Assembly: GCA_021204865.1 (NCBI GenBank)
Contig: JAJPYQ010000031.1
Location: forward strand, 1 to 37,142
Direction of reading: 5' to 3'
DNA: 37,142 bases
Origin: Prevotellaceae bacterium
Lineage (GTDB): Bacteria; Bacteroidota; Bacteroidia; Bacteroidales; Bacteroidaceae
The position numbers and the translations under genes are program-made. Within the stretch, counting starts at the first letter, position 1. The number at the start of each line of letters is the position of its first letter. Below are positions 23,244 to 35,594 of this stretch, piece by piece. The notes below the pieces were generated by a model that did no database searches, had not been told where the DNA came from, and saw only the letters and a list, made by a program, of their open reading frames with translations.

Positions 23244-23375
23244 CGTGATGTCTTTGGCAATACTTCGTGAAGTCTTAGCAAACGTCTCGTGATGTTTAAG
23301 CCAACACGTCGCTACGTTTAGGTCAACACGTCGCTATGTTTTTGGCTAATCTTCGTGATGTTTTTGGCAATGTCT
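23244..23375 (+). repeat. 22-nt tandem array (array D)
   Basis: Six exact 22-nt periods start at 23244, 23266, 23288, 23310, 23332 and 23354, with core CGTGATGTTTTTGGCAA or variants. The units are the reverse complement of array A units (ATCACGAGGCGTTGCC there, GGCAACGCCTCGTGAT here at 23234-23249), so the array faces the opposite way, as does the adjoining inverted repeat. Confidence 0.9.
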
Positions 23376-23426
23376 CGTGCGAATGAATGTTTCGCCCCGT
23401 GCGACCGATTGATTTGTCTCGTGCTG

Positions 23427-23735
23427 TTAAGGAGAACCCCCAGAGGGGGTTCAATACGAGTAGCCTTGGGTTGAAAACCCACGGTAAGGTGCATCGCACC
23501 TATTGAGTGCCGGAGGTACTCAACATCTTCCACCAACGTTGGCAAAAGGGTTGCCTTCGGCGAGGCTCGGCTGCGCTCTGTAAATCGAACGTGTTTGTTT
23601 GCTCTCACTTGCACGAGCGTTGAGTACCTCTGGCACTCAACTTTGCTAACGCCATGAATCCGAGGGTGTCGCTTCGCTCAACCCTCGGCTACTCTTCTTA
23701 AACCCCCGCTGGGGGTTTTTGTGGCAAACAGTGCG
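23427..23735. repeat. Compound hairpin repeat, right copy of inverted pair
   Basis: Reverse complement of 237-545, with the same order of palindromes and only scattered substitutions plus a few small length changes near 23590 and 23655. Pairing of the two copies by recombination would invert the intervening 23 kb of housekeeping genes. Confidence 0.85.
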
Positions 23736-25252: not shown

Positions 25253-26056
25253 ATGGCTAATCTATTTTCTTTGGAAGGCAAGAACGCTTGGATTACGGGC
25301 GCGTCTTACGGCATCGGGTTCAACATCGCCAAGGCTTTCGCAGCCGCCGGCATTAAGAACATCATTTTCAACGACATCAAGCAGGAGCTTGTCGACAGAG
25401 GTTTGACAAGTTACAAGGAGGCTGGCGTCACAAACGTTAAGGGATATGTCTGCGACGTCACGGACGAGAACGCTGTGAAGGCTTTGGTCGAGACCATTCA
25501 CAAGGAGGTCGGGCAGATCGACATACTGGTGAACAATGCGGGCATCATTAAGCGCATCCCGATGCACGAGATGGAGCGCAAGCAGTTCCAGCAGGTCATC
25601 GACATAGACCTCGTTGGCCCCTTCATCGTTTCCTCCGCGGTTCTGCCCGAGATGATGGAGCGCAAAGAGGGAAAGATCATAAATATTTGCTCAATGATGA
25701 GCGAGCTTGGACGCGAGACCGTAAGTGCTTACGCCGCTGCCAAGGGCGGACTGAAGATGCTCACACGTAATATTTGCTCGGAGTATGGCGAGTATAACAT
25801 TCAGTGCAACGGCATCGGGCCGGGTTACATAGCCACTCCTCAGACGGCTCCCCTGCGTGAGCGCCAGCCGGACGGCAGTCGCCACCCGTTCGACTCGTTT
25901 ATCTGCGCCAAGACACCCGCAGGCCGTTGGCTCGACCCAAGCGAGCTTGGCGGTCCCGCCGTGTTCCTCGCCTCGCACGCCAGCGATGCCGTGAACGGAC
26001 ACGTGCTTTATGTCGACGGCGGCATCCTCGCGTACATCGGCAAGCAGCCCCAGTAA
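25253..26056 (+). CDS. Gluconate 5-dehydrogenase / KduD-type SDR
   Basis: Short-chain dehydrogenase/reductase of 267 aa. Seen: the nucleotide-binding TGASYGIG at 15-22, NNAG at 94-97, ICSMMS with the catalytic serine around 147-150, and Y160-x3-K164. The C-terminal half (IGPGYIATPQTAPLR, HPFDSFICAKTPAGRW, YVDGGILAYIGKQP) is the conserved Bacteroidales form annotated as gluconate 5-dehydrogenase or KduD, which reduces 5-keto sugar acids during uronate breakdown. kduI and lyase genes are not here, so pathway placement is inference. A hairpin with a T tract follows at 26083-26135. Confidence 0.92.
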   Translation: MANLFSLEGKNAWITGASYGIGFNIAKAFAAAGIKNIIFNDIKQELVDRGLTSYKEAGVTNVKGYVCDVTDENAVKALVETIHKEVGQIDILVNNAGIIKRIPMHEMERKQFQQVIDIDLVGPFIVSSAVLPEMMERKEGKIINICSMMSELGRETVSAYAAAKGGLKMLTRNICSEYGEYNIQCNGIGPGYIATPQTAPLRERQPDGSRHPFDSFICAKTPAGRWLDPSELGGPAVFLASHASDAVNGHVLYVDGGILAYIGKQPQ

Positions 26057-30142: not shown

Positions 30143-30988
30143 TTACTTGACTATAAGCTTGCAGCTCTCAGTCTCGTTATTGCTGTTCTTCGTCGTCACG
30201 ATGTTCATTCCCTTGCCCCAACTTGAGGTGTTGAGGGAAACGGAGGTCTGCCCCGCAGCTACCGTTAGTCGCTGAACCACTTGTCCGCTTGCGCTTGTCA
30301 CGGTCACTTTGTGTGTGGCCTCCGTGTCGTCGACAAACTCAATCGTGACAGGTGTGCTGCGCTCCAAGATCGTGGGCGATATGCTCAAGCCTTTAACTTT
30401 GCCCACGTACTTAATGCTTGCCTCCTCGCCAGAGTTTATCTGGTAGAAGATAAGCCCATCATAAGGATATTCAAGTTCTACAACAAGGTATACTTTGTCG
30501 TCAAGAAGCCATATCTGCAAGTACAAACGCGAATATTCTGTATCGAAATCCAAAGAACAGAGTTCAACATCCCCCTCTTGCATTACTTTCAAGCCAGCAT
30601 ATTTACCATCCTCATTTTCTACCAGTGCTACCCATTCCCACTTGTCGTCTTGGTTGAAAAGTGTCTGCGATAGATAGATTTCGAAATCTTCCCCGGAATT
30701 ATTTGTATTCAGGTTCCTATAATCGAGATGCTTCCAATCATCCGTCAACGTTATTGTCTTTTCTAACTCAATGTCAGAGTTGTAAATCTCAAAAGTATAC
30801 GTATCATCAGTTGGATCATCTGCTGGATTCGATATTTGAATCAGGAAATGAGCTTTTCCTTCATACAAGAACTCACTGGGGCAATATCTCAGCGTACCAC
30901 TGACTTCCCCAACTTTCGTCAGTTCATTTTGCGCCGAAGCGCCACACACGCCCGCAAGAAGCAGGCAAAAAACAAATACTTTCTTCAT
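30143..30988 (-). CDS. Exported protein with type IX secretion-like C terminus
   Basis: Protein of 281 aa. Seen: a signal peptide (KKVFVFCLLLAGVCGASAQ) and a middle region of beta strands rich in acidic and aromatic residues that I do not recognise. The C-terminal 80 or so residues form a T9SS type A-like sorting domain: VTSASGQVVQRLTV, SLNTSSWGKGMNIV and a final CKLIVK. It is therefore probably exported and anchored or released at the surface. It shares its promoter and leader with the TM2 gene, but its leader carries a MITE-like insertion. Confidence 0.8.
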   Translation of the reverse strand: MKKVFVFCLLLAGVCGASAQNELTKVGEVSGTLRYCPSEFLYEGKAHFLIQISNPADDPTDDTYTFEIYNSDIELEKTITLTDDWKHLDYRNLNTNNSGEDFEIYLSQTLFNQDDKWEWVALVENEDGKYAGLKVMQEGDVELCSLDFDTEYSRLYLQIWLLDDKVYLVVELEYPYDGLIFYQINSGEEASIKYVGKVKGLSISPTILERSTPVTIEFVDDTEATHKVTVTSASGQVVQRLTVAAGQTSVSLNTSSWGKGMNIVTTKNSNNETESCKLIVK

Positions 30989-30993
30989 GGCTT

Positions 30994-31074
30994 TTACCTT
31001 TGTGTCCCTGCGGCTCTAAGGGAACGTTCTTCTTTTGTTTGCTTAAAGGCACAAAAAGAAAGTGGAGCCACCAT
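30994..31074 (-). CDS. Possible 26-aa leader peptide of the exported-protein gene
   Basis: Small frame starting MVAPLSFCA and ending GTQR with TAA; the stop lies 5 nt before the exported-protein ATG, and the AAAGG that could act as its ribosome-binding site overlaps the last codons. Same position and start as the frame at 29857-29762. Confidence 0.35.
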   Translation of the reverse strand: MVAPLSFCAFKQTKEERSLRAAGTQR

Positions 31075-31083
31075 CTGCCTAAT

Positions 31084-31242
31084 CTGTTGAGTAGGGCTTG
31101 GACTCCCCATAGTATTGAAAAAGAAGATTAAATAGCCCCACTTGGATGTAATTCGTACATATACGAATCCATACCAAGGAGAGCATCAATTCCTCTTATC
31201 CCAAATACTATTTTAGTGAAGTGTCCAAGTTCACTCAACTGG
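31084..31242. mobile_element. MITE-like insertion with terminal inverted repeats
   Basis: Ends are inverted repeats: GTTGAGTAGGGCTTGGACTC (31086-31105) against GTGTCCAAGTTCACTCAAC (31221-31239), whose complement shares GTTGAGT and CTTGGAC. It interrupts a leader that is continuous at 29766-29951, between CTGCCTAA and AAATGCGC. It is too short to encode a transposase. A perfect 7-bp palindrome, ATTCGTA/TACGAAT, lies at 31151-31168. The target duplication is unclear (AAT on both sides at best). Confidence 0.75.
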
Positions 31243-31474
31243 AATAAAGCGAAAATGCGCTTTCTTAATTATGTCTTTGCACATATATGCCTCGCTCGGC
31301 AAGTGCAGAACAAAGGTATGCATTAAAGCCTACTCCAACAAACTTTCAGTAGATTTTTTGCGGTCGCCGCACGTTTCGGCAGATAACCAGTGAAAAGAAG
31401 GGCAGCAGACAACGGGAAACCTTCACGCTCGCCCCAAGCTTTTTCTCACGACTAATGTGAGGAGCGACAAAAGC

Positions 31475-31788: not shown

Positions 31789-32568
31789 TTATATATCAGA
31801 AGAGATGGTTTTTGATTTTATGTAATATTTAATACCATTTGTAACACAAAAATCTTCTACTTCCGCAGCGCAACGATTATAAAATTGTTTTTGCTCTTTA
31901 TACTTAGTAACCTTCGAATTATAATTCATTCGACCAAAAACTATTCTGTCGGTAAACCTAACACATTCAAGAATTGAAGATAAATTTTGCTCAACCAAAT
32001 TAGGGGTGGGATAAGGCTCTATACTTACCCACGTTTTACACCCTCTATTATGCAAGAATTTCATTGCATTGAGTCTCTCAAAATATCCAGCAGAGAAAGG
32101 TTCCATTTTCGTCCGAAAACTCTCATCCAAGGAGACGAGAGTTATGCCGTATTCATTTTCCTTTGAAAGATCGCATAGTTCAGGAGGTAGTATACCTTTT
32201 GTCAAGACATTACATCTTATGCCATTTTCGTTTAGTTTCTTTATAGCCTTGATGCTCATGTCAGATATTTCCTCGTATTCATACATAAATGGGTCTGTGG
32301 TAAAGCATAATTGTACAGTCTTTATTCTATCCTTAAGTTGAGGGATCTCTGTATCCAACAAATCTAATGTGTTCTCAACCAAATAGGGTTGAAGCCATTC
32401 TGCATACGAACTAACTTGTCCGAATCTTTTTTTCATCATAAAAGCGTAACACGGGAATCTACAACCATGGGAACAACCAAGAACATGGTTCATTGTATAA
32501 TCGCCATACTCAACACCTGTAATATACAACATCGATTTACGATGGATATAACCTTTAACAGTCTTCAT
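31789..32568 (-). CDS. Radical SAM protein with Cx3Cx3C motif, partner of TcmP
   Basis: Protein of 259 aa from the ATG at 32568. Seen: C32-x3-C36-x3-C40 (GCSHGCRFPCYAF) where a radical SAM enzyme has its cluster cysteines, but spaced x3-x3 rather than the common x3-x2; TTDPFMY, NVLTKGI, ITLVSLDE and WVSIEPYPTP strands fit a SAM barrel like spore-photoproduct-lyase relatives. The start is chosen because ATGA overlaps the tcmP stop; an in-frame ATG at 32583 is possible. Very A+T-rich. Substrate unknown; the coupling to TcmP is the main clue. Confidence 0.8.
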   Translation of the reverse strand: MKTVKGYIHRKSMLYITGVEYGDYTMNHVLGCSHGCRFPCYAFMMKKRFGQVSSYAEWLQPYLVENTLDLLDTEIPQLKDRIKTVQLCFTTDPFMYEYEEISDMSIKAIKKLNENGIRCNVLTKGILPPELCDLSKENEYGITLVSLDESFRTKMEPFSAGYFERLNAMKFLHNRGCKTWVSIEPYPTPNLVEQNLSSILECVRFTDRIVFGRMNYNSKVTKYKEQKQFYNRCAAEVEDFCVTNGIKYYIKSKTISSDI

Positions 32569-33806
32569 TTCTGCTTCCTCCATAAGATTATTTGTTGCCC
32601 TTTCTTTTCTTCCCAGAAACTGCTCCTCTTACCCGTTCTCGTAAGTGGTGGAATCCGCTCAATATATAGTTTCCCTTCTCCTGATAGTTCTTCCAAGACA
32701 CCATAAATAATTTTAAAATCACATATAATGCCACTTTTTGTCATTAAATTCGCCAGAAACTTACCTTTACTAATACTTTTGTTAATCTCTGGAAGTGATT
32801 CTATGACTTCTTTTCGTACCTCTTCTCTCGTAACTATATTTCCTTCTGCTGAAGTTGGAGCATCAAAGAGACAAAGTTGTCCATTTCTTTGTACATCAAC
32901 ACATAATTCTTCTTTTCTGTTCAACATATTTCGAGCCATTAGACAACAACCATCTTCATGATTGCAGACGTGTATCATCCGATACTTCGGGTGTTGCTCA
33001 GGTTTTAATTTAATAGGAATGTCAAGAACATATTTAAAATATTTATTTAGACACTCCTTGTACTCTGCAGAAAGTCGCTTTTCTGCTTGATATCCATCAA
33101 TACTGTGTGATTTATAATCATTCACAATATTTTTCCAGTAATCTCCACCTGCAACTTTGTTTAGTAATTTTTCTGGATTTTTGATATCTTTAAAAGATAT
33201 AGGAGCATATTCAATTAGTTCATCCAAATCACCAAAAGCCTCATCCTTACTCGTATCTACCTTCATATAGCTACAAGCGCATCTAAAAAATCCAAATGAG
33301 TTAAAATTTACCAACATCTCAATAGAGCTAAATTTGTATAACGCAAGTTTCTTAAATAGATTCATATCAAGATATTTTATTCCATATGGGTCAATATACA
33401 GAAATACATTCTGCCCCTTTTCTTTACGTATAGATTCAGAAATAATATTATTAAAACTTCCCTTTTTAGTATCTGGGCTATTATATATCGTAGAATAATC
33501 AGAAATATTCTGGCGCAGTTCTTCTATATGATTTTTTTCAATAAAGAGTAATCTTATTTCGTTACCTTTATTGCAACACTTTGATAGGTTAAGGCATTCA
33601 TCGCGAACTTTTATAGCAATTAATGGAGAACCATCTTTACCATCTTCAAATTTCCCTTTGCCAGCAAAACAATCAACATAACAAATTGATTTGTTCGATT
33701 TAAGAAGTTTTTGGAAATATGGTTTCAAATAGCATTTAAGAAGTTTATCTTTGATAACTGCCCAATCACTTTTATGTTTGAAAAATTTAGAATTATCTTT
33801 TGACAT
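32565..33806 (-). CDS. tcmP: Three-Cys-motif partner protein TcmP
   Basis: TcmP family, named for co-occurrence with three-cysteine-motif proteins; function undescribed to my knowledge. 413 aa from ATG 33806. Seen: FFKHKSDWAVIKDKLL at the N terminus, DCFAGKGKF (45-53) followed by GSPL, and LYIDPYGIKYL (137-147); these resemble motif I and a catalytic DPxG of Rossmann methyltransferases (inference). A C-terminal region with an RKEVIESLP helix may be a winged helix. The frame is open upstream to TTG 33845, but ATG 33806 gives a family-like start. It overlaps the radical SAM start by 4 nt. About 14 of 60 bases are G or C at 33001-33060, suggesting transfer. Confidence 0.85.
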   Translation of the reverse strand: MSKDNSKFFKHKSDWAVIKDKLLKCYLKPYFQKLLKSNKSICYVDCFAGKGKFEDGKDGSPLIAIKVRDECLNLSKCCNKGNEIRLLFIEKNHIEELRQNISDYSTIYNSPDTKKGSFNNIISESIRKEKGQNVFLYIDPYGIKYLDMNLFKKLALYKFSSIEMLVNFNSFGFFRCACSYMKVDTSKDEAFGDLDELIEYAPISFKDIKNPEKLLNKVAGGDYWKNIVNDYKSHSIDGYQAEKRLSAEYKECLNKYFKYVLDIPIKLKPEQHPKYRMIHVCNHEDGCCLMARNMLNRKEELCVDVQRNGQLCLFDAPTSAEGNIVTREEVRKEVIESLPEINKSISKGKFLANLMTKSGIICDFKIIYGVLEELSGEGKLYIERIPPLTRTGKRSSFWEEKKGQQIILWRKQK

Positions 33807-33858
33807 ACTTTTATTGTTAAGGACTACAACACGAACTGTTTTCAAATTATTATCGGAA

Positions 33859-33866
33859 CAAATCTA
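33859..33866 (-). promoter_or_regulatory. -7 element of the tcmP operon with nearby palindrome
   Basis: TAGATTTG on the minus strand, 53 nt before the tcmP ATG. An 8-bp inverted repeat AATGATAT (33891-33898)/ATATCATT (33907-33914) covers the expected -33 position and could be an operator. The rest of 33846-34041 is A+T-rich and without genes. Confidence 0.45.
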
Positions 33867-34041
33867 AAGGTTTGTCTCAATGGATTTTATAATGATATTT
33901 TAGATCATATCATTAATAATCTCTGTGTATATGCTCATTTCTTATTTTTTACATCTGTTGCTTGTCGCAAATTTAATTAAAACGAGGAGAGATCGCTCAT
34001 CCAGTCCGATGGAATTTGCGACCCCTTCTCCTTTCTCTTCG

Positions 34042-34123
34042 TACCCAGAGCCGGGGTCGAACCGGCACGGGTTGCCCCACTGGTGTTTGAGACCAGCGCG
34101 TCTACCGATTCCGCCATCTGGGC
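34042..34123 (-). tRNA. tRNA-Leu (anticodon CAA)
   Basis: Class II tRNA of 82 nt. The acceptor GCCCAGA pairs with TCTGGGT (one G-T), discriminator A; D-arm with GGCGGAATCGGTAGACGC; anticodon stem CTGGT/ACCAG with loop CTCAAAC, hence CAA; a long variable arm; T-loop GGTTCGACCCC. CCA is not encoded. It reads UUG codons. The A+T-rich tcmP cassette lies directly downstream of its 3' end. Confidence 0.95.
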
Positions 34124-34208: not shown

Positions 34209-35594
34209 CTACTTGTCCGCGTCGTCAGCCTTGGGGTTTTGCGGCTCTTCCTGCTGCTTTTTCGCCAAATATTCAGGCAGTGAGAGGCCGGCCTGCTCGA
34301 AGAGTTCGCCAAGCGGCGGGATGCTCTTCATCAGCCCGCTAAGGAAGTTCGCCGTGCTTGTGCGTCCGTCGCCTTGGCCCCCGCCGTTATCCCACACGGT
34401 GACCTTATCAATATTGATGCCCTTAATGGCCTCCACCTGCGTTTTCACAAGGTCCGGCAGCTTTTCCAAGAGGAGCAGCGTGTAAGCCTTCGTGGCGTCG
34501 CCGCCCGCCGCCTTGATCATCTTGTCGTAACCGTCGGCTTGCTTCGTCAACACCTCGTAAAGACCCTTGGCCTCCGCCTCCATCTTCGCGAAGATAGCGT
34601 CAGCCTCGCCCTTAGCGTTGACCCTTTTCTGCTCGGCCAACGCCTCGGCCGCCAGGACCACCCGCTGTTTCTCAATTTCCTGTGCGACGATGACGTTAGC
34701 CGTCTGGGTTGAGCGCTCACGAGCCGCACGCGCCTCCTCCGCCTTCTGTTCCGCGGCGTAAGCCTCCTCGAGGGCCAGCGCCTGAGCCACTTTCTCCGCG
34801 GCGGTAGCCTTGCGCTGCGCCTCCGCTTCCCGCTCGCGCCGGTTCGCGTCGCTGTTGGCTATGGAGATCTTTGCCTCGTTCTCACCCGCCACAGCCTGAG
34901 CGTTAGCGTCCGCCGTGCGTATGCGCGTCTCCCTTTGAGCCTCGGCTTTTCCTATCTCGCCCACTTTCTCCTGCTCCGCGACCCGCACCTTCGCCTCGTT
35001 TATCGCCTTGGCCGCGGCCTCCTGGCCGAGGGCCGCGATGTAACCACTCTCGTCTTTTATGTCGGTGACATTGACGTTTATCAGCCGAAGCCCGATCTTT
35101 TTCAGCTCAACCTCCACGTTCGCGCTGATGGCCTCGAGGAATTTGTCGCGGTCCGAGTTGAGTTCCTCTATGCTCATCGTGGCAATTACGAGACGCAATT
35201 GGCCAAAAAGGATATCCCTCGCCAGTTCCTGGATTTGCAGCGGGGTCTGTCCGAGCAGACGCTCCGCCGCGGCGAGCATTGTGTCAGGCTCTGTGCTGAT
35301 TCCCACGGTGAAGCGGCAGGGAACGTCCACGCGGATATTCTGCCGGCTCAGGGCGTTTGTGAGATTTGCGTCGATGCTTATGGGAGTAAGCGAGAGGTAC
35401 GCGTAGTCTTCTATGATGGGCCAGACGAACGCCCCGCCGCCGTGGTAGCATTTTGCGCTGCGGTTAGAGCCTTTTGCCCCGCCGTATACGACAAGCACCT
35501 TGTCTGACGGGCAGCGACGATAGCGGTTGATGAGCGCCATAAAGAGGAAAAGCGCCACGACGACGAAGATGACGATGAAAAGGAAAGAACCCAT
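34209..35594 (-). CDS. Flotillin-like SPFH protein (FloT/YqiK type)
   Basis: Membrane-microdomain scaffold protein of 461 aa. Seen: one N-terminal membrane helix (FLFIVIFVVVALFLFMALI), an SPFH/band-7 domain at about 30-210 (DVPCRFTVGIS, IQELARDILFGQLR), then a long coiled coil rich in Ala/Glu (EAKVRVAEQEKVGEIGKAEA onward to about 360) as in flotillins, and a polar C terminus. It forms an operon with the upstream NfeD-like gene, the usual partner, separated by 36 nt. Confidence 0.93.
   Translation of the reverse strand: MGSFLFIVIFVVVALFLFMALINRYRRCPSDKVLVVYGGAKGSNRSAKCYHGGGAFVWPIIEDYAYLSLTPISIDANLTNALSRQNIRVDVPCRFTVGISTEPDTMLAAAERLLGQTPLQIQELARDILFGQLRLVIATMSIEELNSDRDKFLEAISANVEVELKKIGLRLINVNVTDIKDESGYIAALGQEAAAKAINEAKVRVAEQEKVGEIGKAEAQRETRIRTADANAQAVAGENEAKISIANSDANRREREAEAQRKATAAEKVAQALALEEAYAAEQKAEEARAARERSTQTANVIVAQEIEKQRVVLAAEALAEQKRVNAKGEADAIFAKMEAEAKGLYEVLTKQADGYDKMIKAAGGDATKAYTLLLLEKLPDLVKTQVEAIKGINIDKVTVWDNGGGQGDGRTSTANFLSGLMKSIPPLGELFEQAGLSLPEYLAKKQQEEPQNPKADDADK

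Follow-up and report, generated by a model that had tools for sequence, protein, structure and literature searches.

Proteins of the TcmP family, defined by the NCBIfam model TIGR04474, keep strict company with a three-cysteine protein, and distant relatives of both proteins are listed in PADLOC-DB as components of the phage-defence candidates PDC-M30 and PDC-M41. The PDC candidates were proposed by guilt-by-embedding in a paper that, in the sections available, terms PDC systems uncharacterised and discusses PDC-M30 as a candidate; of its panel of 100 Pseudomonas aeruginosa strains, 32 were predicted to carry PDC-M30, and 68.8% of those were resistant (PMC10855318). Among the up-regulated genes of Sinorhizobium meliloti, an excerpt of PMC12445080 lists the TcmP SMa2243 next to hna (SMa2245), a gene for phage defence. 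A literature survey, with most subscription journals and all bioRxiv preprints outside its scope, turned up no function for the TcmP family, including in the available portions of PMC12429752, PMC12445080 and PMC10855318. Here, we describe a two-gene cassette in which tcmP is coupled to a gene for a radical S-adenosylmethionine (SAM) protein, at positions 31789-33866 of a 37,142-nucleotide stretch from a Prevotellaceae bacterium (contig JAJPYQ010000031.1, the window in what follows).

The window's TcmP belongs to the TIGR04474 family, scoring 120.8 bits over residues 27-303 (cut-off 53), and its three-cysteine companion not only adjoins but overlaps it. Open reading frames (ORFs) were called mechanically throughout; the mechanical tcmP ORF opens at a TTG (32565-33845, minus strand, 426 amino acids), and the likely start is the ATG at 33806, because homologues open with MSKDN or MAKDN, giving a gene at 32565-33806 and a protein of 413 amino acids. 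For the partner, on the same strand, the mechanical ORF runs from an ATG at 32583 (31789-32583, 264 amino acids), and the likely start is 32568, because its homologues open near MKxVKGY (31789-32568, 259 amino acids). From these likely starts, the tcmP stop and the partner start share the four bases ATGA (32565-32568, minus strand), in keeping with the overlap claimed in the preliminary description of this locus; the upstream ATG would make the overlap 19 bases. The partner matches PF04055 (Radical SAM) at 42.5 bits (cut-off 29.5, residues 31-195), and the two proteins together carry the motifs DCFAGKG, DPYG and GCSHGCRFPCYA. The last of these places three cysteines in a C-x3-C-x3-C array (C37, C41 and C45 in the numbering of the 264-residue frame), a spacing kept in 72 of 76 members of the partner's cluster, the other four having C-x3-C-x2-C. 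The latter is the customary arrangement, which the partner lacks; the radical-SAM cluster motif is "usually CX3CX2C" in the part seen of PMC9692996. What we have seen of the print record for C-x3-C-x3-C in radical SAM proteins is one review, which uses it once, for NifB, and elsewhere gives CX3CX2C for NifB, so that the single use is probably a slip; a second paper, likewise seen in part, applies the term to a peptide.

How, then, does the cassette compare with described systems? At TIGR04474 loci, the partner's place beside related TcmPs may be occupied by a DUF5131 (PF07505) protein, which also has three cysteines, ending CY, spaced C-x6-C-x2-C in the members seen; the window's partner is instead the PF04055 protein with C-x3-C-x3-C and falls below the DUF5131 cut-off (20.4 bits, E 4e-4, against 28.9). 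Its nearest NCBIfam radical-SAM model is TIGR04470, radical SAM mobile pair protein B (E 1.1e-10), to which it does not belong (41.4 bits against a cut-off of 410), its neighbour here being TcmP. In PADLOC-DB, TcmP matches M30A (4.4e-15) and M41A (2.5e-8), and the partner weakly matches M41B (8.2e-5) and M30B (3.8e-4); these are E-values only, the library giving no cut-off for component models, and the matches are partial and distant, covering, for example, residues 22-168 of TcmP and, against M30B, residues 22-73 of the partner. Because both components match NCBIfam or PADLOC-DB models, the undescribed system that had been proposed for this locus is ruled out. Judged by its sequences, the cassette represents a variant, marked by its unusual cluster motif, of a type of system that is known but lacks an explanation.

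The first of two new findings concerns the pairing itself. Among 89 TcmP loci (80 in genomes, 9 viral), a three-cysteine partner is present in 85, which bears out the earlier statement that TcmP travels with such a protein; the pair does not co-occur only rarely. A relative of the window's partner was found by tblastn in 76 of the 89 loci, three further loci (L099, L103 and L112) have a C-x3-C-x2-C relative that emerged from clustering, and DUF5131 stands beside TcmP in six, five of them in one cluster and the sixth, L082, recognised by motif. Counted as partnered are L080, with its DUF5131 four genes downstream, and L102, with its partner on the opposite strand. Of the four partnerless loci, L084, L095 and L108 break off no more than 50 bases from the TcmP match; the fourth, L035, has a shortened TcmP frame. 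Sixty-eight genome loci have the partner on the strand of tcmP; in 66 of them the mechanical frames overlap or adjoin, at distances of -52 to +5 bases, and the remaining two have gaps of 31 and 831 bases. The same coupling is seen in an order-wide sample of 295 genomes around that of locus L025, nine of which have a TcmP over the cut-off: five with a close radical-SAM partner directly adjoining, three with a DUF5131-type neighbour recognised by motif, and a ninth, G724, with interrupted TcmP frames and partner fragments elsewhere on its contigs. One more genome of that sample, G801, has a partner fragment without TcmP. TcmP frames are split or interrupted in L034, L035, L037 and G724, as expected for decaying accessory genes.

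The TcmP tree has 85 rows, made up of the window's TcmP, 11 proteins and 73 of the 84 full-length TcmPs from loci. To account for its five DUF5131 rows, the partner must have changed five times independently, and well-supported branches force all five changes. Because of these changes, we conclude that the radical-SAM partner and DUF5131 families replace each other. L082, whose DUF5131 was seen later, is sister to one of the five rows. Of the five rows labelled as having no partner or a truncated one, three (L051, L094 and L107) have a whole or partial partner by tblastn and L082 has DUF5131; the count of changes is independent of these labels. Thus, two predicted radical-enzyme families have been exchanged beside one methyltransferase-like protein at least five times on the tree, a finding that is new here. 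TcmP evolves faster than its partner, with mean distances of 0.52 and 0.35 (C-x3-C-x2-C rows excluded; r 0.69). The partner alignment was composed of the window's protein, 8 further proteins and 65 of the 75 partners from loci. Rows were dropped from both alignments by eye, mostly near-duplicates.

The second new finding is the link of the TcmP pair, by gene neighbourhood, to several restriction types. The preliminary description had suggested a survey for defence islands or phages, and the neighbours proved rich in restriction-modification and phage genes. Families recurring near TcmP include N6/N4 DNA methylase, HsdM, HsdR, YhcG nuclease, C5 methylase, Dam and DpnII, along with a trio of a helix-turn-helix (HTH) protein, an M78 peptidase and a zinc-ribbon protein, and phage genes for DUF2800, DNA polymerase A and an Enc34-type single-stranded-DNA-binding protein. 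By clusters, the 80 genome loci count 20 with DNA methylase, 12 with type I genes, 6 with YhcG, 4 with DpnII, 6 with phage replication genes and 8 with the HTH-M78 trio. Ten neighbours chosen for their large size all proved to be helicase or restriction proteins: ResIII (four), ResIII with PLD and DUF3427 (two), UvrD with a PD-(D/E)XK nuclease, SNF2, a superfamily 1 helicase and an Eco57I-type enzyme. Genes for GmrSD, Eco57I-type and N6/N4 methylase proteins were likewise found among TcmP neighbours, and in L091 the pair is directly flanked by an N6/N4-methylase-cluster gene on one side and a ResIII gene on the other, all on one strand. In Caproiciproducens faecalis (L061), a cultured carrier, the pair adjoins type I genes. 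A next gene of at least 100 amino acids on the same strand and within 100 bases exists downstream in 31 of 65 loci and upstream in 37 of 77.

Controls from the same genomes set this company apart. Proteins of 150-900 amino acids were compared with the libraries, 125 of 134 eligible nearest neighbours against 125 of 134 control genes. Within the 25 commonest families, the neighbours yielded M78 peptidase 11 times, N6/N4 methylase 7, YhcG 6 and DUF5131 4, whereas no family exceeded two matches among the controls, those with two being mostly housekeeping. PADLOC family matches at 1e-10 numbered 347 for neighbours and 73 for controls, mostly several models per protein. When 17 restriction representatives were searched by tblastn, a relative was present in 29 of 80 TcmP loci against 1 of 36 control regions (Fisher p 5.7e-5), and the M78 protein in 7 TcmP loci against none of the control regions. 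The control regions were taken from contig starts or chosen arbitrarily within these genomes; 8 were shorter than 16 kilobases (kb). Hits of a representative to its own locus were excluded.

Two gene sets near TcmP deserve a description of their own. In ten loci, eight in genomes and two viral (L041, L042, L044, L049, L051, L062, L075, L077, L107 and L108), an HTH protein, an M78 (IrrE-like) peptidase with zinc ribbons and a small zinc-ribbon protein lie directly upstream of TcmP, and they could serve the modification module discussed below as a regulatory pair. L042, L049 and L080 share, 3' of TcmP, a protein of 311-335 amino acids (without a Pfam match in L042) and a ResIII protein of 1125-1335 amino acids, L042 additionally having an Eco57I-type fragment and a GmrSD gene; the shared set is possibly one larger restriction system.

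Relatives of the pair also occur on mobile elements. The partner has matches in 13 phage records and TcmP in 8, most of them distant. An unannotated faecal phage record, MT836112, carries both proteins (67% and 51% identity); the distant TcmP found in seven Gordonia phage records is annotated as a methyltransferase. Plasmid matches amount to 16 records, 13 of them from Streptomyces, all below 60% identity. In all, we found 1,654 TcmP relatives at E <= 0.001 and at least 7,931 partner relatives among the 8,000 candidates scored.

What might the pair do? Our tentative preference, held with rather less than even confidence, is that the cassette arrived by horizontal transfer and encodes two enzymes that together modify nucleic acid, as a module serving alongside restriction and phage systems of diverse kinds. 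Besides motifs and predicted folds, this reading is based on two genes that are inherited together and overlap, and on the many relatives in apparent operons with several types of restriction effector or adjoining phage replication genes; because the family travels with DNA-restriction and phage genes, a nucleic-acid mark is the probable product. TcmP would alkylate a nucleobase, probably in DNA, and the partner would use a [4Fe-4S] cluster and SAM to generate a 5'-deoxyadenosyl radical acting on the same base, perhaps attacking the group placed by TcmP. The nearest precedent for two such steps is Trm5, which makes 1-methylguanosine, followed by Taw1 (TYW1), which abstracts a hydrogen from it (PMC7761594, consulted in part). 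The resulting hypermodified base would identify self DNA to restriction systems or conceal phage DNA from them. In the window's genome the pair stands alone and therefore would act by itself or in trans. A broader version, which we regard as doubtful, is that TcmP with a three-cysteine radical enzyme forms a general, exchangeable base-hypermodification module, TcmP alkylating a DNA nucleobase and either the C-x3-C-x3-C protein or DUF5131 elaborating it; the resulting DNA mark, not described before, would serve restriction systems of type I, II, III and IV-like kinds and also phages.

The methyltransferase half of this proposal draws on conserved motifs and a predicted fold. The motifs noticed earlier, DxFAGxG and DPYG, are present, and residues D45, F47, G49, G51, D139, P140 and G142 are kept in 85 of 85 aligned TcmPs; motif I takes the form DxF[AS]GxG, invariant across the aligned relatives, and position 141 is Y in 81 rows and F in 4, followed by the invariant glycine, giving DP[YF]G. 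The glycine-rich motif I (D45-x-F-x-G-x-G) and acidic motif IV (D139-P) are those of class I SAM methyltransferases. The predicted model (predicted local distance difference test, pLDDT, 86.5) has the Rossmann-type class I methyltransferase fold and lies closest, by VIA-align, to RlmJ, the 23S rRNA A2030 N6-methyltransferase; absence of a family from the VIA-align lists does not mean that it is excluded. By predicted fold and conserved motifs, TcmP is a putative SAM-dependent methyltransferase that would bind SAM; the fold check called for in the preliminary description thus came out as a methyltransferase.

Several results nevertheless weigh against a restriction-linked mark on DNA. The solved methyltransferases nearest to TcmP by fold act on RNA, not DNA. 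RlmJ and Trm1 share only 8-15% identity with TcmP and have no sequence-profile match to it, and a profile search of solved structures with TcmP gave no methyltransferase, its sole hit being a phosphatase (E 0.83). Foldseek places a protein-lysine methyltransferase among the best matches to the model, MnmM with transfer RNA (tRNA) fifth and RlmJ ninth (E 0.0018). The motif of RlmJ is DPPY; TcmP, with DP[YF]G, lacks this DPPY-type motif IV of N6-adenine methyltransferases. On the side of the neighbourhoods, no restriction relative was found by the same tblastn in 51 of 80 TcmP loci, stand-alone pairs like the window's make up 12 of 61 testable cases, and the restriction representatives were drawn from TcmP loci, so that the test set was favoured. 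Finally, the C-x3-C-x3-C spacing makes radical chemistry by the partner putative.

Some of these results point to the main rival of restriction-linked base hypermodification, namely that RNA is the substrate: the pair would modify tRNA or rRNA, for ribonuclease protection or altered translation in phage infection, and the DNA-restriction neighbours would be defence-island company only. RNA methyltransferases, RlmJ and Trm1, are among the VIA-align best matches, MnmM was matched with its tRNA, Taw1 after Trm5 is an RNA pathway, and three of the four sub-threshold TIGR04474 hits scanned from other genomes fall in PF03602, which we take to be the RsmD rRNA methyltransferase family. Set against this are the operon-like union of the pair with DNA-restriction genes and the nearest fold of the partner, which is that of a DNA enzyme; we consider an RNA substrate unlikely, slightly more so than the broader DNA-mark proposal.

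That DNA enzyme is spore photoproduct lyase, whose fold the partner's predicted model (pLDDT 94.3) shares; it stands well above the next entry, and a profile match agrees. The resemblance has its limits, with 13% identity over the alignment, 340 residues against 264, and a C-x3-C-x2-C cluster motif in the lyase against C-x3-C-x3-C in the partner. It raises the idea of reversal, in which the partner would remove a lesion or a phage DNA modification as the lyase does and TcmP would be a DNA-binding or marking subunit. The fold match favours this, as does the HTH and M78-peptidase pair upstream in some loci, the M78 gene matching the CapP model in 6 of the 125 scanned neighbour proteins. The catalytic, hydrogen-donating cysteine of spore photoproduct lyase is C140, however, and in the profile alignment it falls on F94 of the partner, with C93 one residue earlier; moreover, TcmP keeps all of its methyltransferase motif residues, needless for a mere binding subunit. 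We judge reversal improbable. Least probable of all, in our estimate, is that the partner, like viperin, produces a free small molecule, such as an antiviral nucleotide, which TcmP would methylate or sense.

Returning to the favoured modification module, its horizontal acquisition is probable from sequence comparisons, which make the cassette accessory and probably of foreign origin, much as the preliminary description had supposed. The host is probably a member of Bacteroidaceae, the family of all three organism-named records among the top 120 relatives of the SPFH/flotillin gene that adjoins the tRNA described below. In the kinship sample (150 genomes) TcmP occurs once, and in the phylum sample (395 genomes, E <= 1e-20) the partner occurs once, in both cases in the window's own genome; a core gene of the genus is thereby ruled out. 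In the TcmP tree the window's row lies inside an eight-row clade (support 100/98) whose other members are five Bacillota, one Actinobacteria record and one Desulfovibrionaceae record, and its end branch is long (0.81). The G+C content of 31789-33866 is 33.0% against 52.1% for the whole window, and the contig minimum for 2,078-base segments (0.329, step 100) lies in the cassette; GC3 (G+C at third codon positions) is 0.24 and 0.32 in the two genes against 0.51-0.78 in five neighbours. The counts previously offered, 14/60 (0.233) in 33001-33060 and 27/60 (0.45) in 35041-35100, proved correct on recounting. Such features would also suit a passenger or decaying remnant without present function: the copy is stand-alone, A+T-rich, in a variable region and on a long branch. 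Yet both frames are open with the invariant residues kept, and the partner is still 72% identical to its best-scoring relative (52% for TcmP), so that a remnant seems improbable, slightly more so than reversal but less so than a small-molecule role.

The cassette lies 3' of a tRNA-Leu(CAA) gene (34041-34123, minus strand, ARAGORN), as had been noted. This tRNA adjoins an SPFH/flotillin gene in 3 of 19 relatives with an SPFH locus (about 1.5 kb flanks examined), and in these three (L113, L114 and L115) the alignment to the window ends at 34037-34039, the tRNA 3' end; in a fourth, L116, the tRNA is absent at the SPFH locus. The gene at 25253-26056, on the cassette's far side, is matched in 40 of the genus sample's 60 other genomes; the nearest relative carries it on a different contig from the tRNA. 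From the stop of the alignment and the separate location of that gene, we place the cassette at the tRNA edge of a variable region. Integration targeted to the tRNA with flanking repeats found no support, no repeat of at least 11 bases from 34021-34123 recurring elsewhere in the window on either strand, and no integrase was recognised by eye in the window's ORF list, of which no library scan for one was made. Upstream of tcmP, the claim of an own promoter with a palindrome stands in part: a 9-bp inverted repeat with an 8-base gap (33890-33915), read from the sequence, is a putative operator, whereas promoter evidence does not go beyond chance, because 11 promoter-like sites compare with 10.6 expected from shuffles. 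Terminators likewise show no excess over shuffles. Elsewhere in the window, 30144-31320 (a frame of 281 amino acids with upstream sequence) is a repeated element, because relatives occur at three places in the nearest related genome (G057, contigs 7, 162 and 118), and the mechanical frames 427-759 and 23318-23614 both contain the repeated peptide LPTLVEDVEYLRHSIGAMHLTVGFQP, an observation that points to a dispersed repeat of non-coding DNA.

Both TcmP and the proteins paired with it are widespread. If it is true that the pair writes a new base modification, then the mark would be common to several restriction types and phages. Should it not do so, the close pairing and the recurrent swap of the radical enzyme still bring the question within direct reach of genetics and mass spectrometry.
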